From assembly GCA_903862955.1 (NCBI GenBank), contig CAIPAH010000024.1:372001-436000 (forward strand): DNA of 64,000 nucleotides, given 5' to 3'. The first letter of the stretch is position 1. Each line of letters opens with the position of its first letter. Shown here piece after piece: positions 5,160 to 58,518 of this stretch. Made by a program: the position numbers and the translations under genes. The stretch comes from an uncultured Opitutia bacterium (GTDB taxonomy: Bacteria > Verrucomicrobiota > Verrucomicrobiia > Opitutales > Opitutaceae). The notes beneath the pieces were generated by a model that was not told the DNA's origin, did no database searches, and saw only the letters and a program-made list of their open reading frames with translations.

Positions 5160-5270
5160 TTTGCCCGCGAATTGCGCGAACTAACGCGAATTGAAAATTC
5201 CCCTGCATTCCGGGTCCGGAACCTGCATTGTTTCCGACATTCGCGTTCATTCGCACCATTCGCGGGCAAA
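5160..5270. repeat. ATTCGCG palindromic repeat between fcl and tatC
   Basis: Left arm TTTGCCCGCGAA (5160-5171), followed by GCGCGAACTAACGCGAAT, is mirrored by ATTCGCGTTCATTCGCACCATTCGCGGGCAAA ending at 5270. The arms match imperfectly over about 40 bases around a central loop. It fills nearly all of the gap between the two minus-strand genes and could fold as RNA in a read-through transcript. Confidence 0.8.
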
Positions 5271-18992: not shown

Positions 18993-19036
18993 TCACGCAA
19001 AGCCGCAAAGTCCGGGCACTTGGCGGCTTTGCGTGA
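18993..19036. terminator. Hairpin between convergent genes
   Basis: The inverted repeat TCACGCAAAGCCGC (18993-19006) / GCGGCTTTGCGTGA (19023-19036) is perfect over 14 bases with a 16-base loop. It sits between the ends of the 81-aa membrane gene (plus) and the HNH gene (minus), so it could terminate both. No U-tract follows on either side. It may equally be a member of the palindromic repeat families. Confidence 0.55.
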
Positions 19037-19685: not shown

Positions 19686-19759
19686 ACGGAGCCAACGGGA
19701 TAGCCGCGCCGCCGCCGGCCTGTCAAGCGGTCGAAAGGTTCGGTCGCGTCACCGCACAA

Positions 19760-19822
19760 CTGTAGGAGCGGCTTTACGCCGCGATGCTGGACATCAATCG
19801 CGGCGTAACGCCGCTCCTACAG
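19760..19822. repeat. GTAGGAGCG palindromic repeat, copy 2
   Basis: CTGTAGGAGCGGCTTTACGC on the left and GCGTAACGCCGCTCCTACAG on the right form a nearly perfect inverted repeat. The full arms are about 24 bases around a GCTGGACATC-type loop. It is the same family as 7442-7502 and lies between the helicase stop and the HNH start. Confidence 0.92.
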
Positions 19823-19841
19823 TGGGGACGTCCCAATCAGG

Positions 19842-21708: not shown

Positions 21709-21767
21709 GTAGGTCGGGGTTTATCCCCGATATTCTGGTTCCGTATCGGGCGTAAAGCCCGACCTAC
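21709..21767. repeat. GTAGGTCGGG palindromic repeat supplying a stop codon
   Basis: Arms GTAGGTCGGGGTTTATCCCCGATA and TATCGGGCGTAAAGCCCGACCTAC flank a short loop. The TAG stop of the TIM-barrel isomerase gene (CTA at 21764-21766) is made by the GTAGG end of the element. It is the same family as 2668 and 48979. Confidence 0.92.
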
Positions 21768-22667: not shown

Positions 22668-22730
22668 TAAGCCGGAAGCCAGGAAGCCATGAATCGGAAG
22701 ATCGTTCCTGGTTTCCTGGCTTCCGGCTAA
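22668..22730. repeat. AGCCGGAAGCCAGGAA palindromic repeat, copy 2
   Basis: AGCCGGAAGCCAGGAA and TTCCTGGCTTCCGGCT are perfect 16-base arms (about 22670-22685 and 22713-22728) around a 27-base loop. It lies between the SDR stop and the isomerase start. Related copies are at 2560 (degenerate) and 37132. Confidence 0.92.
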
Positions 22731-23991: not shown

Positions 23992-24059
23992 GGGGAAGGT
24001 CGCGGCGGGTTGCGCTGACAGTGGCACGGTCCAACGCCCGCCTGCAAGCCGCCGGAAGA

Positions 24060-24174
24060 TTGGCCACGAAGAGACCCAAAGGGGCCGGGGCTGCGAATGA
24101 CTCTCCATCGCGCCTATAGGCGCACGGGAGATTCGAGTCGGAGGCTGGGAGCCCTTGTGCCTCTTCGTGGCCAA
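24060..24174. repeat. Palindromic repeat with CGCGCCTATAGGCGC core, copy 2
   Basis: Left arm TTGGCCACGAAGAGACCCAAA pairs with right arm TGTGCCTCTTCGTGGCCAA. The core CATCGCGCCTATAGGCGCACGGGAGATTC is identical to the copy at 6278-6307. It fills the gap between the dehydrogenase stop and the OsmC start. Confidence 0.92.
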
Positions 24175-24189
24175 CCCTCCGACGGATCG

Positions 24190-37094: not shown

Positions 37095-37240
37095 GGTGGG
37101 CCGCGCGCTCCGCGCGCGGCAATACGTGTTTAAGCCGGAAGCCAGGAAACCCGGAATCAGCCCGGATTGTATCCTGGTTTCCTAGCTTCCGGCTTCAAAA
37201 AGCTTTAACGGTATACCGCGCGCGGAGCGCGCGGCCCACC
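37095..37240. repeat. Nested palindromes after the SpoIIAA-like gene and before purM
   Basis: The outer inverted repeat has perfect 25-base arms, about 37095-37119 and 37216-37240 (GGTGGGCCGCGCGC... and its reverse complement). Between them sits a complete copy of the AAGCCGGAAGCCAGGAAACC / GGTTTCCTAGCTTCCGGCTT element (about 37132-37195). The right arm ends 3 bases from the purM stop codon. The whole could fold into one long hairpin, or one element has been inserted inside another. Confidence 0.9.
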
Positions 37241-38412: not shown

Positions 38413-38519
38413 GGTGGTCGTTGATTTTCACATCGACGACTGGGCCATGTCGCCAGTGTGGAAACCGGCGACCACCTCGAGCCACTCTCGAGTCGCCGAT
38501 CTGAAAATCGACGACCACC
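38413..38519. repeat. GGTGGTCG palindromic repeat upstream of purM and the GT87-like gene
   Basis: Left arm (about 38413-38440, GGTGGTCGTTGATTTTCACA...) and right arm (about 38492-38519, ending GAAAATCGACGACCACC) are inverted with about 24 of 28 matches. The loop contains more GGCGACCACC pieces of the same element. It lies in the divergent upstream region of both genes, so it could affect either promoter. Confidence 0.85.
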
Positions 38520-38577: not shown

Positions 38578-39813
38578 ATGCCGGCCGAAACGTCCCCCGA
38601 CCCACGTCCCCGCGCTGGAGGCTGGCGCGACGGCCGCTGGATCCTGGTCGGGCTGCTGCTGGTGCAGCTGGCGGTGTTTTTCCAATTCAGCCCGCGCTAC
38701 GACTACCTGCAGGTTGCGCGCCGCTGGGGCGTGCTGGCGATTCCGCCGAACTTCTCGGACCTGTATTTCATCGCCGCCGCCGGCGCCACGCTGCGCGCGG
38801 GCGGTGATCCCTACCAGCTGAACGCATTCGACCCGATGAAGCGGCCCTACAACTACCCGCCGCTCTGGCTGCATCTCTCGTGGCACACGTCCGTATCGCC
38901 CACCGTGATCCGGTGGCTGGCCATCGCGATGGGCGCCTTCGGGCTGGGGGCCTTCCTGTGCTTTCTGGGCCCGATTTCCCCGGGACGCGGGCTGCTGCTG
39001 GGCCTGCTCGCCTGCTCGCCCCCTATCCTGCTGGCCGCACAGCGCGCCAACGCCGACATCCTGATGCTCGGCTTGGTGGCGCTCGGGCTCGTGCTCCTGC
39101 GACGCGGACAGTCGGTGGCGGGTTACGCGAGTTTGGTGGCGGCGACCTGGTTGAAACTCTACCCGCTGTTTACGCTCGTGGTGCTCTGGCGGGAACCCCG
39201 TGACCGCCTGCGCCGGCTCGGCGCGCTCGTGGTGCTCGCGAGTCTGCTCTGCTTCGCGGCCTACGCCGGTTATCTCGGCCGGATTTTTGCCAACACCCCC
39301 ACGGGCGGACTTCATTCCTACGGCGCGCGCGTGGCGGCGTTTTGGGCCGAGTTTTTCCTGGCGGGCCAAGGCTGGGCGGTGAACCTCACCTTGCTCGGCC
39401 GCTGCTGCACGCTGCTGGCCGTCGCGGTGGGCGCGCTGGCGCTGCGCTGCAGCTGGCGCCGCCCGCTGGAAGCGACGCTCGACTCCACCGAACTTGACGG
39501 ATTCCGCGCGGGCGCGGCGGTCTACGTGACCACCTTCCTGTTCAGCGTGAGCTTCGACTACCGCCTGCTCTTCCTCCTGCTGTGCGTGCCCCTGCTCTGC
39601 TCTCTGGCCTCCTCGCGCGCGTCCGGACGCGGCTGGGGCGTCGCCGCCCTCGTGCTCATTTTCGGCCTCATGTGGCCCAACGGCCTGTTCTGGAAACCCC
39701 TCCTCCTCGTGAAGGAAGCGTCCAGCTGGGGACTCTATTTCACCCTCACCGTCCTCCTGCTCCGCACCCTCCGAAATCGAAATTCGGAAATCGAAATTCG
39801 GAAATCTCAGTAG
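38578..39813 (+). CDS. GT87-like (DUF2029) polytopic glycosyltransferase
   Basis: The 411-aa integral membrane protein has about ten helices and the pattern of GT-C glycosyltransferases of the GT87/DUF2029 type. SDLYFIAAAGATLRAGGDPYQ carries the Asp near the first loop (active-site region), with NYPPLWLHL and QRANADILML further on. Such enzymes move mannose or other sugars from polyprenyl-phosphate donors outside the membrane. The ATG at 38578 is chosen at the helix-proximal start; the frame upstream is only repeat sequence. The last residues (RNSEIEIRKSQ) are coded by a 14-bp tandem repeat. Its TAG overlaps the end of purF. Confidence 0.8.
   Translation: MPAETSPDPRPRAGGWRDGRWILVGLLLVQLAVFFQFSPRYDYLQVARRWGVLAIPPNFSDLYFIAAAGATLRAGGDPYQLNAFDPMKRPYNYPPLWLHLSWHTSVSPTVIRWLAIAMGAFGLGAFLCFLGPISPGRGLLLGLLACSPPILLAAQRANADILMLGLVALGLVLLRRGQSVAGYASLVAATWLKLYPLFTLVVLWREPRDRLRRLGALVVLASLLCFAAYAGYLGRIFANTPTGGLHSYGARVAAFWAEFFLAGQGWAVNLTLLGRCCTLLAVAVGALALRCSWRRPLEATLDSTELDGFRAGAAVYVTTFLFSVSFDYRLLFLLLCVPLLCSLASSRASGRGWGVAALVLIFGLMWPNGLFWKPLLLVKEASSWGLYFTLTVLLLRTLRNRNSEIEIRKSQ
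39777..39804. repeat. 14-bp tandem repeat at the 3' end of the GT87-like gene
   Basis: TCGAAATTCGGAAA occurs twice in tandem (39777-39790 and 39791-39804), with palindromic TTCGAA-like content. It codes the C-terminal residues IEIRK of the membrane protein and borders the convergent purF stop. Confidence 0.8.
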
Positions 39814-41714
39814 CTCCGGCCTTCGCTCTTCTCGTAGTAGTTCACGTAGGCCTGGTTCACCACGCGGTAGCCGCCGGGCGTGGGATACTTGCCGGTGAAA
39901 TACCAGTCGCCCGTGTGCCCCGGCACCGCCGCATGCAGGTGCTCGATGGTCTGGAAGATGATCTCGATCTCGCCCTGCCACTCGATGCCCTTCGGCCGCA
40001 CGCGCTCCACGATCTTGCGCGAGATCTGCTCGGGCGTGAAGGGCTCGTAGATCTTCCGCACGTGGTTGACCGCGCCGTTGGTCAAAATCTCCCGCCGGCA
40101 GAGCGTGTAGATTTCCTCGAGCAGGCTGGCCTGTCCGCGTTCCTTCAGCAGCTCGACCGCCGCCTCGAACGCGATGAATTTGCCCAGCTCCGACATGTCG
40201 ATCCCGTAGCAATCGGGGTAGCGCACCTGCGGCGCGGTCGAGACGATGACGATCTTCCGCGGGTTGAGCCGGGCGAGAATGCGGAGGATGGACTTGCGCA
40301 GCGTCGTGCCGCGGACGATCGAGTCGTCCACGCAGACGAGGTTGTCGCCGGGGTTCACCGACCCGTAGGTGATGTCGTAAACATGGCTCGCGAGCTGGTT
40401 GCGCATCGTTTCCTGGCCGATGAACGTCCGGATCTTGATGTCCTTGCTCACGACCTTCTCGCCCCGCGGCCAGTTGCGCAGGATGAGCTCGTCCAGCAGC
40501 GTCTCGGTCAGCTGGCCCTTCGCCTGCGCCGCGAGGATCGCCGCCTTCACCTCGTCGCGGCGCTTGGTGCGCAGCGCCGACATCAAACCGTAGTAGGCCA
40601 CCTCGGCGGTGTTGGGGATGAAGCCGAACACTGTCTTTGCCCAGTCGCCGCCGATGGACTTGATCACCTGGTCCGCCAGCCCGCCGCCCAGCGCCTGGCG
40701 CTCGCGGTAGATGTCGAGGTCGTTGCCCCGGGAAAAATAGATGCGCTCGAACGAGCACGACGCGCGCGGCAGGGGCGCCGTGAACGGCTTGGAGGAGACT
40801 GCGCCGTTTTTCTTGATCACGACGACGTGCCCAGGGTCGACTTCCTTCACCTGCTCCACCGCGAGGTCGAACACGGTCATGAGCGGAGCCCGCTCCGACG
40901 CAAACGCGATGAACTCGTCGTTCTGGACCCAGAAGCACGGCCGGATGCCCGACGGATCGCGCGCCACGAAGGCATCGCCATTGCCGATGAGCCCCGCGAT
41001 GGTGAAGCCGCCGTCCCACTTGTTGGCCGCCCGCGTGAGCACGCGCGCCAGGTCGAGGTCCTCGCTGATCTGCCGCGAAATCGCCGCGCCCGCCATGCCC
41101 TTCTGCCGCAGGTGCCGGTAGATTTCCTCGTGTTCCTCATCGAGGAAGAAGCCGATCTTCTCCAGCACCGCCTGCGTGTCGGTCGCGTAGATGGGATGCT
41201 GCCCCATGTCCGTCAGCGAATGATTCAGCTCGACGGTGTTGGTCAGGTTGAAATTGCCGCACAGCGCGAGATTGCGCGTCGGCCACGGGCTGCGGCGGAA
41301 GAACGGGTGGCAGGACGACAAATTGTAGCCGCCGCTGGTGCCGTAGCGGAGGTGGCCGAGGAAAAGCTCGCCGCCGAAGTCGAAGGACTTCTTCACCGTG
41401 TCGGCGAACTCCGGGTGGATGACGCCCGAGGCGACCTTGTCGTTATACTGGCCGAGCAGGAGCTTGAAGATCTTGTCGAGCGGGTTGGTTTTCACGCTGC
41501 GCTCGCGGAACATGAACGCCTCGCCGGCGGGCACATCGAGCTTCACGCAGGCCACGCCCGCGCCGTCCTGGCCGCGGTTGTGCTGCTTTTCCATCAGCAG
41601 GAAGAGCTTCGTGAAGCCCCACAGCGGCGAACCGTATTTCTCCTGGTAGTAGGCCAGCGGCTTCAGCAGCCGGACCATCGCAATGCCGCACTCGTGCGTG
41701 ATCCGGTCGCTCAT
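39807..41714 (-). CDS. purF: Amidophosphoribosyltransferase, long type
   Basis: PurF makes phosphoribosylamine from PRPP and glutamine, step 1 of purine synthesis. The 635-aa protein starts MSDRITHECGIAMVRLLKPL. Cys9 is the expected N-terminal nucleophile of the glutaminase after removal of 8 residues. MEKQHNRGQDGAGVA and the PRPP loop VCVDDSIVRGTTLRK are present. It is longer than E. coli PurF (505) and resembles the long Bacteroidetes-type enzyme. The ATG follows TGCACCC. Its TGA overlaps the convergent GT87-like TAG by 7 bases; purL is divergent on the other side. Confidence 0.96.
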   Translation of the reverse strand: MSDRITHECGIAMVRLLKPLAYYQEKYGSPLWGFTKLFLLMEKQHNRGQDGAGVACVKLDVPAGEAFMFRERSVKTNPLDKIFKLLLGQYNDKVASGVIHPEFADTVKKSFDFGGELFLGHLRYGTSGGYNLSSCHPFFRRSPWPTRNLALCGNFNLTNTVELNHSLTDMGQHPIYATDTQAVLEKIGFFLDEEHEEIYRHLRQKGMAGAAISRQISEDLDLARVLTRAANKWDGGFTIAGLIGNGDAFVARDPSGIRPCFWVQNDEFIAFASERAPLMTVFDLAVEQVKEVDPGHVVVIKKNGAVSSKPFTAPLPRASCSFERIYFSRGNDLDIYRERQALGGGLADQVIKSIGGDWAKTVFGFIPNTAEVAYYGLMSALRTKRRDEVKAAILAAQAKGQLTETLLDELILRNWPRGEKVVSKDIKIRTFIGQETMRNQLASHVYDITYGSVNPGDNLVCVDDSIVRGTTLRKSILRILARLNPRKIVIVSTAPQVRYPDCYGIDMSELGKFIAFEAAVELLKERGQASLLEEIYTLCRREILTNGAVNHVRKIYEPFTPEQISRKIVERVRPKGIEWQGEIEIIFQTIEHLHAAVPGHTGDWYFTGKYPTPGGYRVVNQAYVNYYEKSEGRSY

Positions 41715-41908
41715 GGGTGCATCCCGGCTGCGCCGGTGAGGTTTTGGGCGGGCGGAAAGTCGGCGTTGGTCCTCAAGCCCCAGATTTCGGCTACGTCCCG
41801 GAAATCGTCAACGGATTTTTCCAATCGTAACATTGGGCGCGCCGCGCCGCGCGGGCGTCAGCCTTCTTGACCGCGCTGGCGATGTCCCAAAACATCCTAT
41901 CCTCAACC

Positions 41909-44900
41909 ATGTTGATCCTCCGCGGCTCCCCGGCTCTCTCCCCTTTCCGCCTCGCCAAGCTCCTCCAGGATCTCACCACCGCCCAGCTGCCCGCCCGCGC
42001 CCTCAGCGCCGAGTTCGTCCATGTCGTTGAAACCACCGCCGATCTGACGCCCGCCGAAAGCACGGTTCTCGACCAGCTCCTCACCTACGGCCCCAGCCGC
42101 GCCGCCGCGCCCGTCGCCGGGCTCACGCAGGTCGTCGCCCCCCGCCCCGGCACCATCTCACCGTGGTCCTCCAAGGCCACCGACATCGCGCACATCTGCG
42201 GCCTGGACTCAGTGGCGCGCATCGAGCGCGTGGTCGTTTACCACGTCGAGATCGACCACACCGCACTGGCCAAACCGCTCATGGTCCTGTCCGCCGCCCA
42301 GCTGGCGGCCCTGCGCGCCAAGCTGCATGACCGGATGACGCAGGTCGTTTTCGACCAAGTCGAGAAGTGCGAGGTCCTGTTCCGTCACGAAAAGCCGCGC
42401 CCGATGACGTCCGTGCCGCTTCTCGCACAGGGCCGCGCCGCGCTCGTCGCCGCCAACCGGACGCTCGGCCTCGCGCTCGCCGATGATGAGATCGACTACC
42501 TGGTCAAGGCGTTCACGTCCCTCGGACGCGACCCGCATGACATCGAGCTGATGATGTTCGCGCAGGCCAACTCCGAGCACTGCCGCCACAAGATTTTTAA
42601 CGCCAGCTGGGACCTCGACGGCGCCGCGCAGGCCAAGTCGCTGTTCCAGATGATCCGGAACACCTACCTGCTGCACAGCGACGGCATCCTCTCGGCCTAC
42701 AAGGACAACTCCGCCGTCTTCACCGGCTCGCGCGGCGGCCGTTTCTACGCCGACCCCAAGTCCCACGAATACGCCGCCCACGCCGAGGACATCCACATCC
42801 TCTGCAAGGTCGAAACGCACAACCATCCCACCGCCATCTCGCCCTATCCTGGTGCTGCCACGGGCTCGGGCGGCGAAATCCGCGACGAGGGCGCGACCGG
42901 TCGCGGCGCCAAGCCCAAGGCCGGCCTTACCGGCTTCACCGTCTCCAATCTCCACCTGCCCGGCGCCGTCCAGCCGTGGGAAAAAAACTTCGGCAAGCCC
43001 GGCCGCATCGTCTCCGCCCTCGACATCATGATCGAGGGCCCGCTCGGCGGCGCCGCCTTCAACAACGAATTCGGCCGCCCCAACATTGCGGGCTACTTTA
43101 GAACTTACGAACAGGAGGTGCCAATGGCCGCAGGCCGCGGGGCGATCGGCAAGAGGCGAGAGGCAGACCCAGCCATCCCGAATGCTTCTAGTTCCGACCC
43201 ATCCCCCATCGCCTTTCGCCACGCGCCCCCCGCCACCGAGCTGCGCGGCTACCACAAGCCCATCATGCTCGCCGGCGGACTCGGCAACATCCGGCCGGAT
43301 CACGTCAAAAAGGGCGTCATCGAGCCGGGCGACAAGCTCGTCATCCTCGGCGGGCCCGCGATGCTGATCGGCCTCGGCGGCGGCGCGGCCAGCTCGATGG
43401 CCAGCGGCTCCGGCAACGAGGATTTGGATTTTGCCAGCGTCCAGCGCGACAACGCCGAGATGGAACGCCGCTGCCAGGAGGTCATCGATCGCTGCTGGGC
43501 ACTCGGCGACGAGAACCCGATTTCGTTCATCCACGACGTCGGCGCCGGCGGTATTTCCAACGCCCTGCCCGAGCTGGTCAACGACGCCGGCCGCGGCGGA
43601 CGCTTCCAGCTGCGCGCCGTCCCCAACGCCGAGCCCGGCATGAGCCCACTCGAGATCTGGTGCAACGAGTCGCAGGAACGTTACGTCCTCGCCGTCCCCG
43701 CCACGCGCCTCGCCGTGTTCCAGCAACTCTGCGAGCGCGAGCGCTGCCCGTTCGCCGTCGTCGGCGAGGCGACCGAGAAGAAGCAGCTCGTCGTGGAAGA
43801 CGCGCATTTCCAGTCCACGCCCATCGATCTCCCGCTCGAGGTCCTCCTCGGCAAGCCGCCGAAGATGCACCGCACGGACACGACGCTCTCCCGGCCGCTG
43901 CAACCCTTGTTACTTGGCAACTTGCCACTGGCGGACGCCGTCCGCCGCGTCCTCTCCCACCCGACCGTCGCCGACAAGACTTTCCTCATTTCCATCGGCG
44001 ACCGCACGCTCGGCGGCCTGATCTGCCGCGACCAAATGGTCGGCCCGTGGCAGGTGCCCGTCGCCGACTGCGCCGTCACCGCCGCCGCCTTCGACGTCTA
44101 CACCGGTGAAGCCATGGCCATGGGCGAGCGCACCCCGGTCGCGATCAACTCCGCCGCGGCCTCCGCCCGGCTTGCGGTGGGCGAGGCGCTCACGAATCTC
44201 GCCGCCGCGCAGGTCGGCGACATCGGCCGCGTCAATCTCTCCGCCAACTGGATGGCTGCGCCCGCGATCCCCGGCGACGGCGCCGACCTCTACGCCGCGG
44301 TGAAAGCCGTGGGCATGGAACTCTGTCCCGCGCTCGGCATCACGATCCCCGTCGGCAAGGACTCGATGAGCATGAGCACCGCCTGGCAGGACGCCGCCAC
44401 TGGCGAAAACCGCCGCGTCACCGCGCCCGTCTCGCTCATCATCTCCGCCTTCGCCCCCGTCGCCGACATCCGCCTCTCGCTCACGCCGCAGCTCCAATAC
44501 GACCGGAGCGGGTCGCCCACGGAACACACGGAAACCAAGCCGAGTGGATCCGCCGGGCGTATTTCCGCCTCAGCTTCTGTGTCTTCAGTGTGTTCCGTGG
44601 GCAACACGATCCTCCTCCTGATCGACCTCGGCCTCGGGAAGAACCGGCTCGGAGGTTCGATCCTCGCGCAGGTCGTCTCGCAGACCGGCGCCGAGCCGCC
44701 TGACGTCGATTCCGCCGTCGACCTGAAGAATTTCTGGAACGCCATCCAGCAGCTCGGCCGGCAGAAAATGCTCCTCGCCTACCACGACCGCTCCGATGGC
44801 GGTCTGCTGGCCACCGTCACGGAAATGGCTTTCGCCGGCCACGTGGGCGTGGACCTCGAGCTTCCCACGGGCCACGACGTTTTCCCGGCTCTTTTCAGCG

Positions 44901-46060
44901 AGGAGCTTGGCGCCGTGCTCCAAGTCCGCGCGTCCGACCTCGATGACGTCAATCTCGTGCTGCGCGGCCACGGCCTCGCCGCGTGCGTCACGCGCATCGG
45001 CTCACTCAATTCCGCCTACGCGCTGCGCATTCGCCAGGCCGGGCAGGTGATCCTGGACGAGAACCTCTCCACGCTCCGTTCCTATTGGTCTGACGTTACC
45101 CGCCGGATCGCCGCGCTCCGCGACAATCCCGCCTGCGCGGAGTCGGAATACCAGTGGAAGCTCGACGCCAGCGACCCGGGCATCACCCCGCTCCTCACCT
45201 TTGACCCGAGACCCGGCAGCGCTCAGGTCGAGTCCAAGACCGCGGATCCGTTCGTCACCTCCGTGCCGTTCGTGGCGATGCGGGCCAAGCCTTCGGTCGC
45301 GATCCTGCGCGAGCAGGGCGTCAACGGCGAAGTCGAGATGGCCGCGGCGTTCATGCGCGCGGGCTTCAGGGCCGTCGATGTGCACATGACCGACCTCCTC
45401 AGCGGCCGCGTTTCGCTGCGGGACTTCCGCGGCCTCGCCGCGTGCGGCGGGTTCAGTTACGGTGACGTCCTCGGCGCCGGCGAAGGCTGGGCCAAAAGCG
45501 TGCTGTTTCATTCGAACGCCCTCGCGGAGTTCACGGCATTCTTCCAGCGCGTGGACACGTTCGCGCTCGGCGTGTGCAACGGCTGCCAGATGATGAGCAA
45601 CCTCAAGTCGATCATCCCCGGCGCCGACCTCTGGCCGCGTTTCGTCCAAAACCAGTCCGAGCGCTACGAGGGGCGGCTCGTGTCGGTGAAGATTGAGAAG
45701 AGCCCCAGCGTCCTCTTCGCCGGCATGGACGGCAGCGTCATCCCCGTCGTCACCGCCCACGGCGAGGGTTACGCCGAGTTCGCGAATCCCGATGCCGCCC
45801 AGAAATGTTCCGTCTCTGGCCTGGTGTCGGCGCGCTTCGTAGATAACAGGCACCAGCCTACCGAAAGGTATCCGCTGAACCCGAATGGCTCGCCTCTCGG
45901 CATGACCGCGCTCACGACGACCACCGGCCGCGTCACGATCCTGATGCCTCACCCCGAGCGCGTTTTCCGCACGCAAGCCTTGAGCTGGCACCCTCCCGAC
46001 TGGGGCGAGGACTCGCCGTGGATGAAGCTGTTCTACAATGCCCGGGCGTGGGTGGGGTGA
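41909..46060 (+). CDS. purL: Phosphoribosylformylglycinamidine synthase with two extra segments
   Basis: PurL converts FGAR to FGAM using glutamine, step 4 of purine synthesis. From ATG 41909 ([20 protein letters not shown]) it is 1383 aa, about 90 longer than E. coli PurL. Conserved blocks are [45 protein letters not shown] and the glutaminase end [14 protein letters not shown] / CNGCQMMS / PHPERVFR. Compared with E. coli, two segments of about 33 extra residues appear, one between YEQEV and ELRGYH (about 405-444) and one between TPQL and LLLIDL (about 868-900). The second is coded by a palindromic repeat. The upstream TTG (41867) is not used as start. Confidence 0.96.
43125..43240. repeat. 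Probable degenerate repeat insert inside purL
   Basis: This DNA codes the extra residues [20 protein letters not shown] and onward. Left part GGCAAGAGGCGAGAGG and the reverse complement of right part CCCATCGCCTTTCGCC match at about 12 of 16 bases, a weak palindrome. The length of about 100 extra bases fits a 33-codon insertion, in frame. The signal is weaker than that of the element at 44515. Confidence 0.45.
44515..44602. repeat. ACGGAACACACGG palindromic element inserted in frame in purL
   Basis: Arms GCCCACGGAACACACGGA (44515-44532) and TCAGTGTGTTCCGTGGGC (44585-44602) are inverted with 17 of 18 matches. The same element, with 24-base perfect arms, lies between genes at 58441-58517. In purL it stays in frame and adds the residues around [20 protein letters not shown], at a place where E. 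coli PurL has only a short loop. Confidence 0.9.
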
Positions 46061-58400: not shown

Positions 58401-58440
58401 GCCCTTTTCTGTAATGCCGCGCGGCGCAGTCAACCCGCGG

Positions 58441-58517
58441 GTTGTGGCCCACGGAACACACGGAGGACACGGAACTGGACTTGAAGGCCGGCTTCCGTGT
58501 GTTCCGTGGGCCACAAC
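58441..58517. repeat. ACGGAACACACGG palindromic element, intergenic copy
   Basis: Arms of 24 bases (58441-58464 and 58494-58517) are perfect inverted repeats of GTTGTGGCCCACGGAACACA... around a 29-base loop. The right end is 2 bases from the SDR stop codon at 58519. It is the same family as the in-frame copy inside purL. Confidence 0.95.
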
Positions 58518-58518
58518 C

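Follow-up and report, generated by a model that had tools for sequence, protein, structure and literature searches.

Protein-coding palindromes have been cited in arguing that selfish DNA is able to give rise to new parts of proteins, and MITEs are short dispersed DNA elements with inverted repeats. The palindrome studied here lies within purL in a window (the whole stretch of DNA analysed, 64 kb) of the genome designated G000 (3.61 Mb in 31 contigs), and its repeat family is likewise short, dispersed and made of inverted repeats, but differs from MITEs in that no target-site duplication was found at any of its 34 two-armed copies.

Intragenic GTAG and CGTC repeats, most of the GTAG ones in Opitutus terrae, were described by Di Nocera et al. 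2013 (PMC3733652). The target genes that it names include the two uvrA genes, a DNA ligase gene and RNA helicase genes. Over half of the intragenic inserts there encode 20-30 residues, loops or linkers are proposed as neutral sites, and REP dimers are described as short dispersed palindromes whose spacers vary. As presented there, the O. terrae GTAG REPs resemble the G000 family in being short dispersed palindromes that lie in conserved genes and are translated, in a bacterium of what is probably the same family, but they have 5-13-bp stems and a GTAG tag, whereas the G000 repeats have untagged arms of 9-bp units and spacers of 11-128 nt. The terminal GTAG or CGTC tetranucleotide of GTAG/CGTC REPs is not a feature of the G000 family (3 of 34 copies have GTAG near an end, and 0 of 34 have CGTC); where such REPs are units of 20-40 bp, each with its own 5-13 bp stem, the G000 palindrome consists of two separate arms; and where GTAG-type REPs flank a RAYT gene, the G000 repeat does not flank the transposase-like genes at loci L095 and L096, described below. 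The sequence-only reading had taken such elements to be unknown in this group, a claim that fails because intragenic O. terrae repeats are reported in the available text of PMC3733652; the G000 family differs from the repeats of that article in having no tag and another arm structure. The name purL has 0 occurrences in its main text (target ORFs are tabulated in additional file 3), and a term search of the accessible text of PMC6006769 found no mention of Opitutus. In open-licence literature text, four repeat sequences and two repeat peptides did not occur, and a search for purL with palindromic insertion gave nothing on point among the matches listed.

For RPEs, the available text of a review (PMC10969869) gives a length of about 150 bp, a conserved encoded peptide and a location in ORFs for nearly half of the copies, and describes in-frame palindromes inside metabolic genes that are tolerated by the protein. 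The likeness to RPEs proposed earlier stands in so far as a palindrome is translated in frame within a conserved gene, and gives way elsewhere: judged by that text, the whole element and its peptide are conserved in RPEs, whereas the G000 family is conserved in its arms only, with spacers that are not conserved, and many RPE copies lie inside genes, whereas this is demonstrated for 1 of the 34 G000 copies, the other 33 being without evidence of an intragenic place.

The palindrome within purL

The purL gene of the window (41867-46060, + strand) encodes a single-chain phosphoribosylformylglycinamidine synthase of 1397 aa, counted from a predicted TTG start, which was matched as a full-length FGAM synthetase (2022 bits) and whose frame stays open across the palindrome. 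Inverted arms of 18 bases were located inside the gene where the sequence-only reading had placed them, CCCACGGAACACACGGAA at 44516-44533 and TTCAGTGTGTTCCGTGGG at 44584-44601, with 17 of 18 positions matching. On the + strand, the left arm (44516-44533) is composed of two 9-bp units, CCCACGGAA CACACGGAA, and is followed by 41 nt of between-arm sequence (44534-44574) and by a right arm of three inverse 9-bp units, TTCTGTGTC TTCAGTGTG TTCCGTGGG (44575-44601). A repeat finder lengthened the arms to 44505-44533 and 44584-44612 (29 nt, 86%). The inverted-repeat score of this insert was 17, against a maximum of 12 in 2399 control segments from the same purL genes, and the palindrome is not due to chance. 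Folded as RNA, the segment 44505-44612 reached -53.8 kcal/mol (z = -4.81), and 0 of 200 shuffles were equally stable.

The translated insert (44501-44602, + strand) is Ser/Thr-rich and comprises PurL residues 879-912, which face one residue of Salmonella PurL (1t3t), in agreement with the roughly 33 extra residues counted earlier; a second stretch, residues 420-456, is likewise longer than that of Salmonella and had been missed. An AlphaFold2 model of PurL residues 453-1397 (21 sequences) had a mean pLDDT of 72.7 and a pTM of 0.66, with pLDDT below 50 at residues 882-910, that is, at the insert, between two strands. The low confidence agrees with a disordered loop and is not proof of one, because pLDDT values under 50 occur elsewhere in the model too (194 of 945 modelled residues overall).

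Copies of the repeat in the G000 genome

With up to 2 mismatches, the 17-nt arm pattern had 48 forward and 43 reverse matches in G000, window copies included, and the reversed control of the pattern had 0. Clustering reduced the arm matches to 44 places, and 34 of these are two-armed; the open frame and the genome-wide arm matches together bear out the purL palindrome as dispersed repeat DNA lying in frame within the gene. The second window copy (58440-58518, no strand assigned) has the longer arms that had been reported for it, at 58440-58464 and 58494-58518 (25 nt, 100%), and the single + strand frame scanned through it held no Pfam domain. The nearest whole-element match to the purL copy in G000, among the matches listed, was at C13:187529-187627 (74%, query bases 18-109 of 118).

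The arms are conserved among copies, roughly following the consensus TTG-CCCACGGAA-CACACGGAA-GACACGGAA, and are mostly 18-27 nt long and built of 9-bp units (arm median 27, spacer median 25 and spacer range 11-128 nt in the 34 two-armed copies). The between-arm sequences of these copies are unrelated, save for one pair with a common nested palindrome. Arm identity was 0.895 within a copy, a value that 0 of 20000 permutations reached, against 0.867 between copies, and the arms covary within copies, with concordant junction letters in 23 of 34 where 15.3 were expected. The target-site duplication predicted by the sequence-only reading was not seen, 0 of 34 copies having at least 4 matching bases (shuffled mean 0.86). 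Allowing 1 mismatch, 21 of the 57 genomes contained the arm pattern, in some cases just once, as did 0 of the 20 outside family f1, which is inferred to be Opitutaceae.

Other palindromes are nested between CACGGA arms at L005 (G000:C9:74370-74529), L081 (G000:C13:207052-207224), L082 and L027, contig positions being approximate for elements in loci matched on the minus strand, with counts unaffected. The same nested palindrome (TCATTCTGAGCG...) occurs in both L005 and L081, and palindromes therefore appear to land in palindromes.

At 15 of the 34 two-armed copies, no frame stays open over 30 codons to each side. Apart from purL, 18 copies were left, of which 17 were scanned in 1-2 spanning frames each (L082 was left out), and none had a Pfam domain on both sides of the repeat; a domain lying wholly on one side was found beside four copies, namely IGPS and MazG (on two strands, at one copy), mandelate racemase-like, PhyH and amidohydrolase. 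From these two results, the purL copy is the sole demonstrated intragenic copy among the 34, by a Pfam-based test that is blind to copies inside genes without a Pfam domain.

Two Y1-transposase-like genes are present in G000, and the arm pattern, at up to 3 mismatches, was absent from their 3.3- and 3.2-kb loci, L095 and L096. Among 12 genomes of the genus, G008 has repeats and no Y1 match, and G005 and G009 have a Y1 match and no repeats. A RAYT as mobiliser of the family is not supported, since the Y1 genes do not track the repeat and the arm pattern is absent at their loci; no parent transposon was found for the G000 family with the Y1 family searched. At L095 (G000:C22:240405-240734), the Y1-transposase-like gene was seen by eye to lie between inverted ACTTTTGTAGTT-type copies, next to a GGGGCTGACCCC-like repeat, which is the layout that a RAYT bordered by its own repeats would show.

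Length-variable loops of PurL and two control proteins

PurL was searched in 57 genomes and matched in 51, and 36 whole frames were aligned, from 35 of the 37 f1 genomes and from G046, with other non-f1 genomes left out; the two remaining f1 genomes are G022 (no match) and G006 (split over two contigs and examined apart). The outgroup consisted of 78 PurLs from outside the family, mostly labelled as Gammaproteobacteria, two of an initial 80 (L097 and L098) having been dropped as apparent f1 sequences (G032 and G019). Extra PurL residues concentrate after residues about 133, 424, 683, 878, 1000 and 1120 (numbered from the TTG start), and 5 of 35 genomes have a 17-residue insert at a seventh site, residue 1331. 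The outgroup loop maximum was 8 at residue 878 and 11 at residue 424, and family PurLs surpassed the 95th percentile of the outgroup by over 10 in 11 of 35 genomes at residue 878, 18 of 35 at 424 and 12 of 35 at 1120. The second lineage-variable loop, residues 420-456 (43124-43234, + strand), is non-palindromic in G000, and its insert contains tandem CGCAGAG-type units in five relatives (G002, G004, G005, G009 and G011); the third variable stretch, residues about 1121-1136 (45227-45274, + strand), lies just before the glutaminase domain and bears palindromes in some relatives.

Inserts of at least 12 aa numbered 64 in 27 genomes, of which 12, in 8 genomes, scored 13-23, above all 2399 controls (maximum 12), and 52 did not; at residue 133, the inserts of G005 and G009, both among the 12, do not differ in their arms. 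The CACAGAG-type arm of G015, at a PurL loop other than 878, had 24 + 27 matches in its own genome, purL copies included, and with two mismatches had 3 + 6 matches in G027, the G027 purL copy included. One TGTAGCCGGGG-type palindrome family occupies two PurL loops of G014, at residues 878 and 1000.

At loop 878, palindromes are clear in G000, G005, G009, G026 and G027 (scores 16-23) and in G006 (score 15), and weaker in G014, whose score of 12 is also that of the highest control, and in G034, whose score of 10 was attained by 13% of its controls; G010 apparently has a single arm. The palindromes are of unlike make, for example GGCACGGGCG... in G026 and TGTAGCCGGGG... in G014, and YD...(G)ET flanks are common to several of the inserts. 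Counts of arms in their own genomes, which cover G000, G026, G014, G009 and G015 and leave out the arms of G005 and G006, showed dispersal of loop-878 arms in G026 (12 + 17 matches) and G014 (44 + 38), purL copies included; dispersal in G009 is weak, because its arm had 0 + 3 matches and one of these is the purL copy. The closest aligned relatives, the sister species G002, G004 and G011, have a 7-residue loop 878 (QQVEDSV or QPVADSV) and no insert, consistent with the expectation that some relatives would lack it. It was checked whether all relatives carry the same residues with no repeat similarity, and they do not; an ancestral loop without a repeat origin is rejected in view of the dispersed, palindromic nature of the insert DNA and of the 7-residue loop in the sisters.

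The inserts of G006 and G027, which belong to different genera, are orthologous (score 116, z 34.5), with identities of 96% and 100% in the outer flanks, 65% and 64% in the arms and 70% in the between-arm part; among 30 arm pairs, 21 were unchanged, 3 changed on both sides, 2 changed on one side and 4 were broken. Going by this sequence comparison, at least one palindrome seems to have been kept through the split of two genera or passed between them, with arms that seem to have changed partly in step. The orthology means that the palindromes at loop 878 are not all separate insertions, and the counting of every event there as independent was dropped.

Tandem 9-bp units were present in 15 PurL inserts, with one codon phase for sense units (13 of 13) and one for antisense units (10 of 10), encoding the motifs (x)TE(x)TE or (x)AK/AE, and SV or AS. 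Stops alone do not account for this phase, because an alternative frame was open in 11 of the 13 inserts examined, and selection against the peptides of other frames is suggested. The probability of the common phase over 13 chosen inserts was 1.4e-4, which is an overstatement because G006 and G027 have a common insert and the events are not all independent; inserts at one loop may have common ancestry, which could bring the number of independent events down to three. Two of those 13 were added by hand from outside the strict 15-row list (G005 at 878 and G027 at 1120), and four of the 15 strict rows were left out as shared with G004 (S436 in G002, G005, G009 and G011).

The search for two control proteins, ValS and a PurF-like protein, the latter encoded by the gene adjoining purL (39810-41714), covered 30 of the 37 f1 genomes. 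The PurF-like protein, whose naming is uncertain (TIGR01134 purF, 121 bits, below the cut-off of 350), had no match in G021 and was matched in one piece in the other 29, in all of which its net length varied by no more than 7 residues. The ValS alignment covered 29 genomes, G028 being dropped for having only weak matches, and shows mainly one hot loop, around residue 533 in aligned-frame numbering, where 6 of 29 (G003, G005, G007, G008, G018 and G020) carry inserts of 25-48 residues; smaller or single inserts lie elsewhere, among them those of G012, G013, G015 and G016. From the constant length of the PurF-like protein and the single ValS hot loop, acceptance of inserts is protein- and loop-specific, PurL being the most decorated of the three proteins, a small sample. 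One enzyme followed over 35 family genomes thus presents the same loops empty or with different palindromes, beside an adjoining PurF-like protein of constant length.

Origin of the inserts and other palindromes of the window

The repeat is dispersed, lies in frame in purL, is missing from the closest aligned relatives and falls in a loop predicted with low confidence. We consider it likely that a dispersed hairpin repeat was copied into a tolerant, exposed loop of purL and kept as a near-neutral insert, and that the other PurL loops were filtered in the same way. A copying event would have put the repeat into the loop by way of an enzyme encoded elsewhere, of template switching during replication or of gene conversion between hairpins; the cell would have survived because the net length was a multiple of three, no stop was present and a Thr/Glu- and Ser/Val-rich frame would give a soluble, flexible loop; and the insert would then have been retained as near-neutral baggage in a tolerant, disordered loop. 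The same filter would act on other PurL loops of the family, which would thus repeatedly hold palindromes of families resident in the genome concerned. Against this reading stand the 52 of 64 PurL inserts within the range of the palindrome controls, the lack of a target-site duplication together with Y1 genes that do not track the repeat, and the between-arm sequences, whose lack of relation in all but one pair is odd for ordinary transposition; the lack of the insert in G002, G004 and G011 could be a loss.

A possible, if less probable, history is that one old palindrome stood at the PurL loop and its arms were rewritten in concert after the repeats resident in each genome, through gene conversion or quasipalindrome template switching and with no separate insertions. 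This is kept as a serious rival because of the orthologous G006/G027 insert, in which near-identical flanks enclose strongly diverged arms with three double changes, and because of the arm covariation within G000-family copies; the YD...(G)ET flanks common to several inserts also fit it. It is harder to reconcile with the palindromes of quite different make in G026 and G014 at the same place and with the lack of any palindrome in G002, G004 and G011, and in the G006/G027 pair three double changes in one sequence pair are few against four broken pairs and the between-arm part diverged nearly as much as the arms. That the insert in G000 is instead a conventional REP/RAYT or MITE, a non-autonomous element with defined ends moved by a tyrosine or DDE transposase, we regard as doubtful: the REP dimers in the available text of PMC3733652 are comparable in form, and one of the two Y1-transposase-like genes has GTAG-containing repeats at its own ends (by eye), but end tags are rare, all 34 copies are without a target-site duplication, Y1 presence does not follow the repeat in the 12 genomes of the genus and the arm pattern is absent at both Y1 loci.

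Positive selection for the insert, as a regulatory mRNA hairpin or a functional PurL loop, would draw on the strong RNA hairpin and on the orthologous palindrome that G006 and G027 both retain, some of its changes being compensatory; it is rendered improbable by the 24 of 35 aligned orthologues whose loop 878 has no long insert (by a length criterion), by content that differs between sister species and by the low pLDDT. An assembly artefact at a multi-copy repeat in a metagenome-type genome of 31 contigs is very improbable indeed, given that a 444-kb contig encloses the element, with purL running on unbroken and in frame to either side of it, and that the single-contig genomes G014 and G015 also have PurL-loop palindromes.

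More tentatively, and with little confidence, exposed loops of conserved Opitutaceae enzymes might be standing acceptor sites for unrelated palindrome families, whose arms would then be rewritten together after resident repeats and so dictate the amino acids of the loop; if true, this would extend concerted evolution into essential proteins. PurL offers a compact system both for the movement of repeats without obvious transposase marks and for the question of which protein loops accept them.

Within the 64-kb window, Rfam models at gathering thresholds had no match. Ten more strong inverted repeats were seen there, at 1243-1341, 2668-2723, 5160-5270, 18993-19036, 19759-19823, 21709-21767, 22670-22728, 24049-24185, 37095-37240 and 38413-38519. 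They look like other dispersed palindrome families, and several have arms of short tandem 7-9 bp units, such as AATGACTAATGACTAATG and AAGCCAGGAAGCC.
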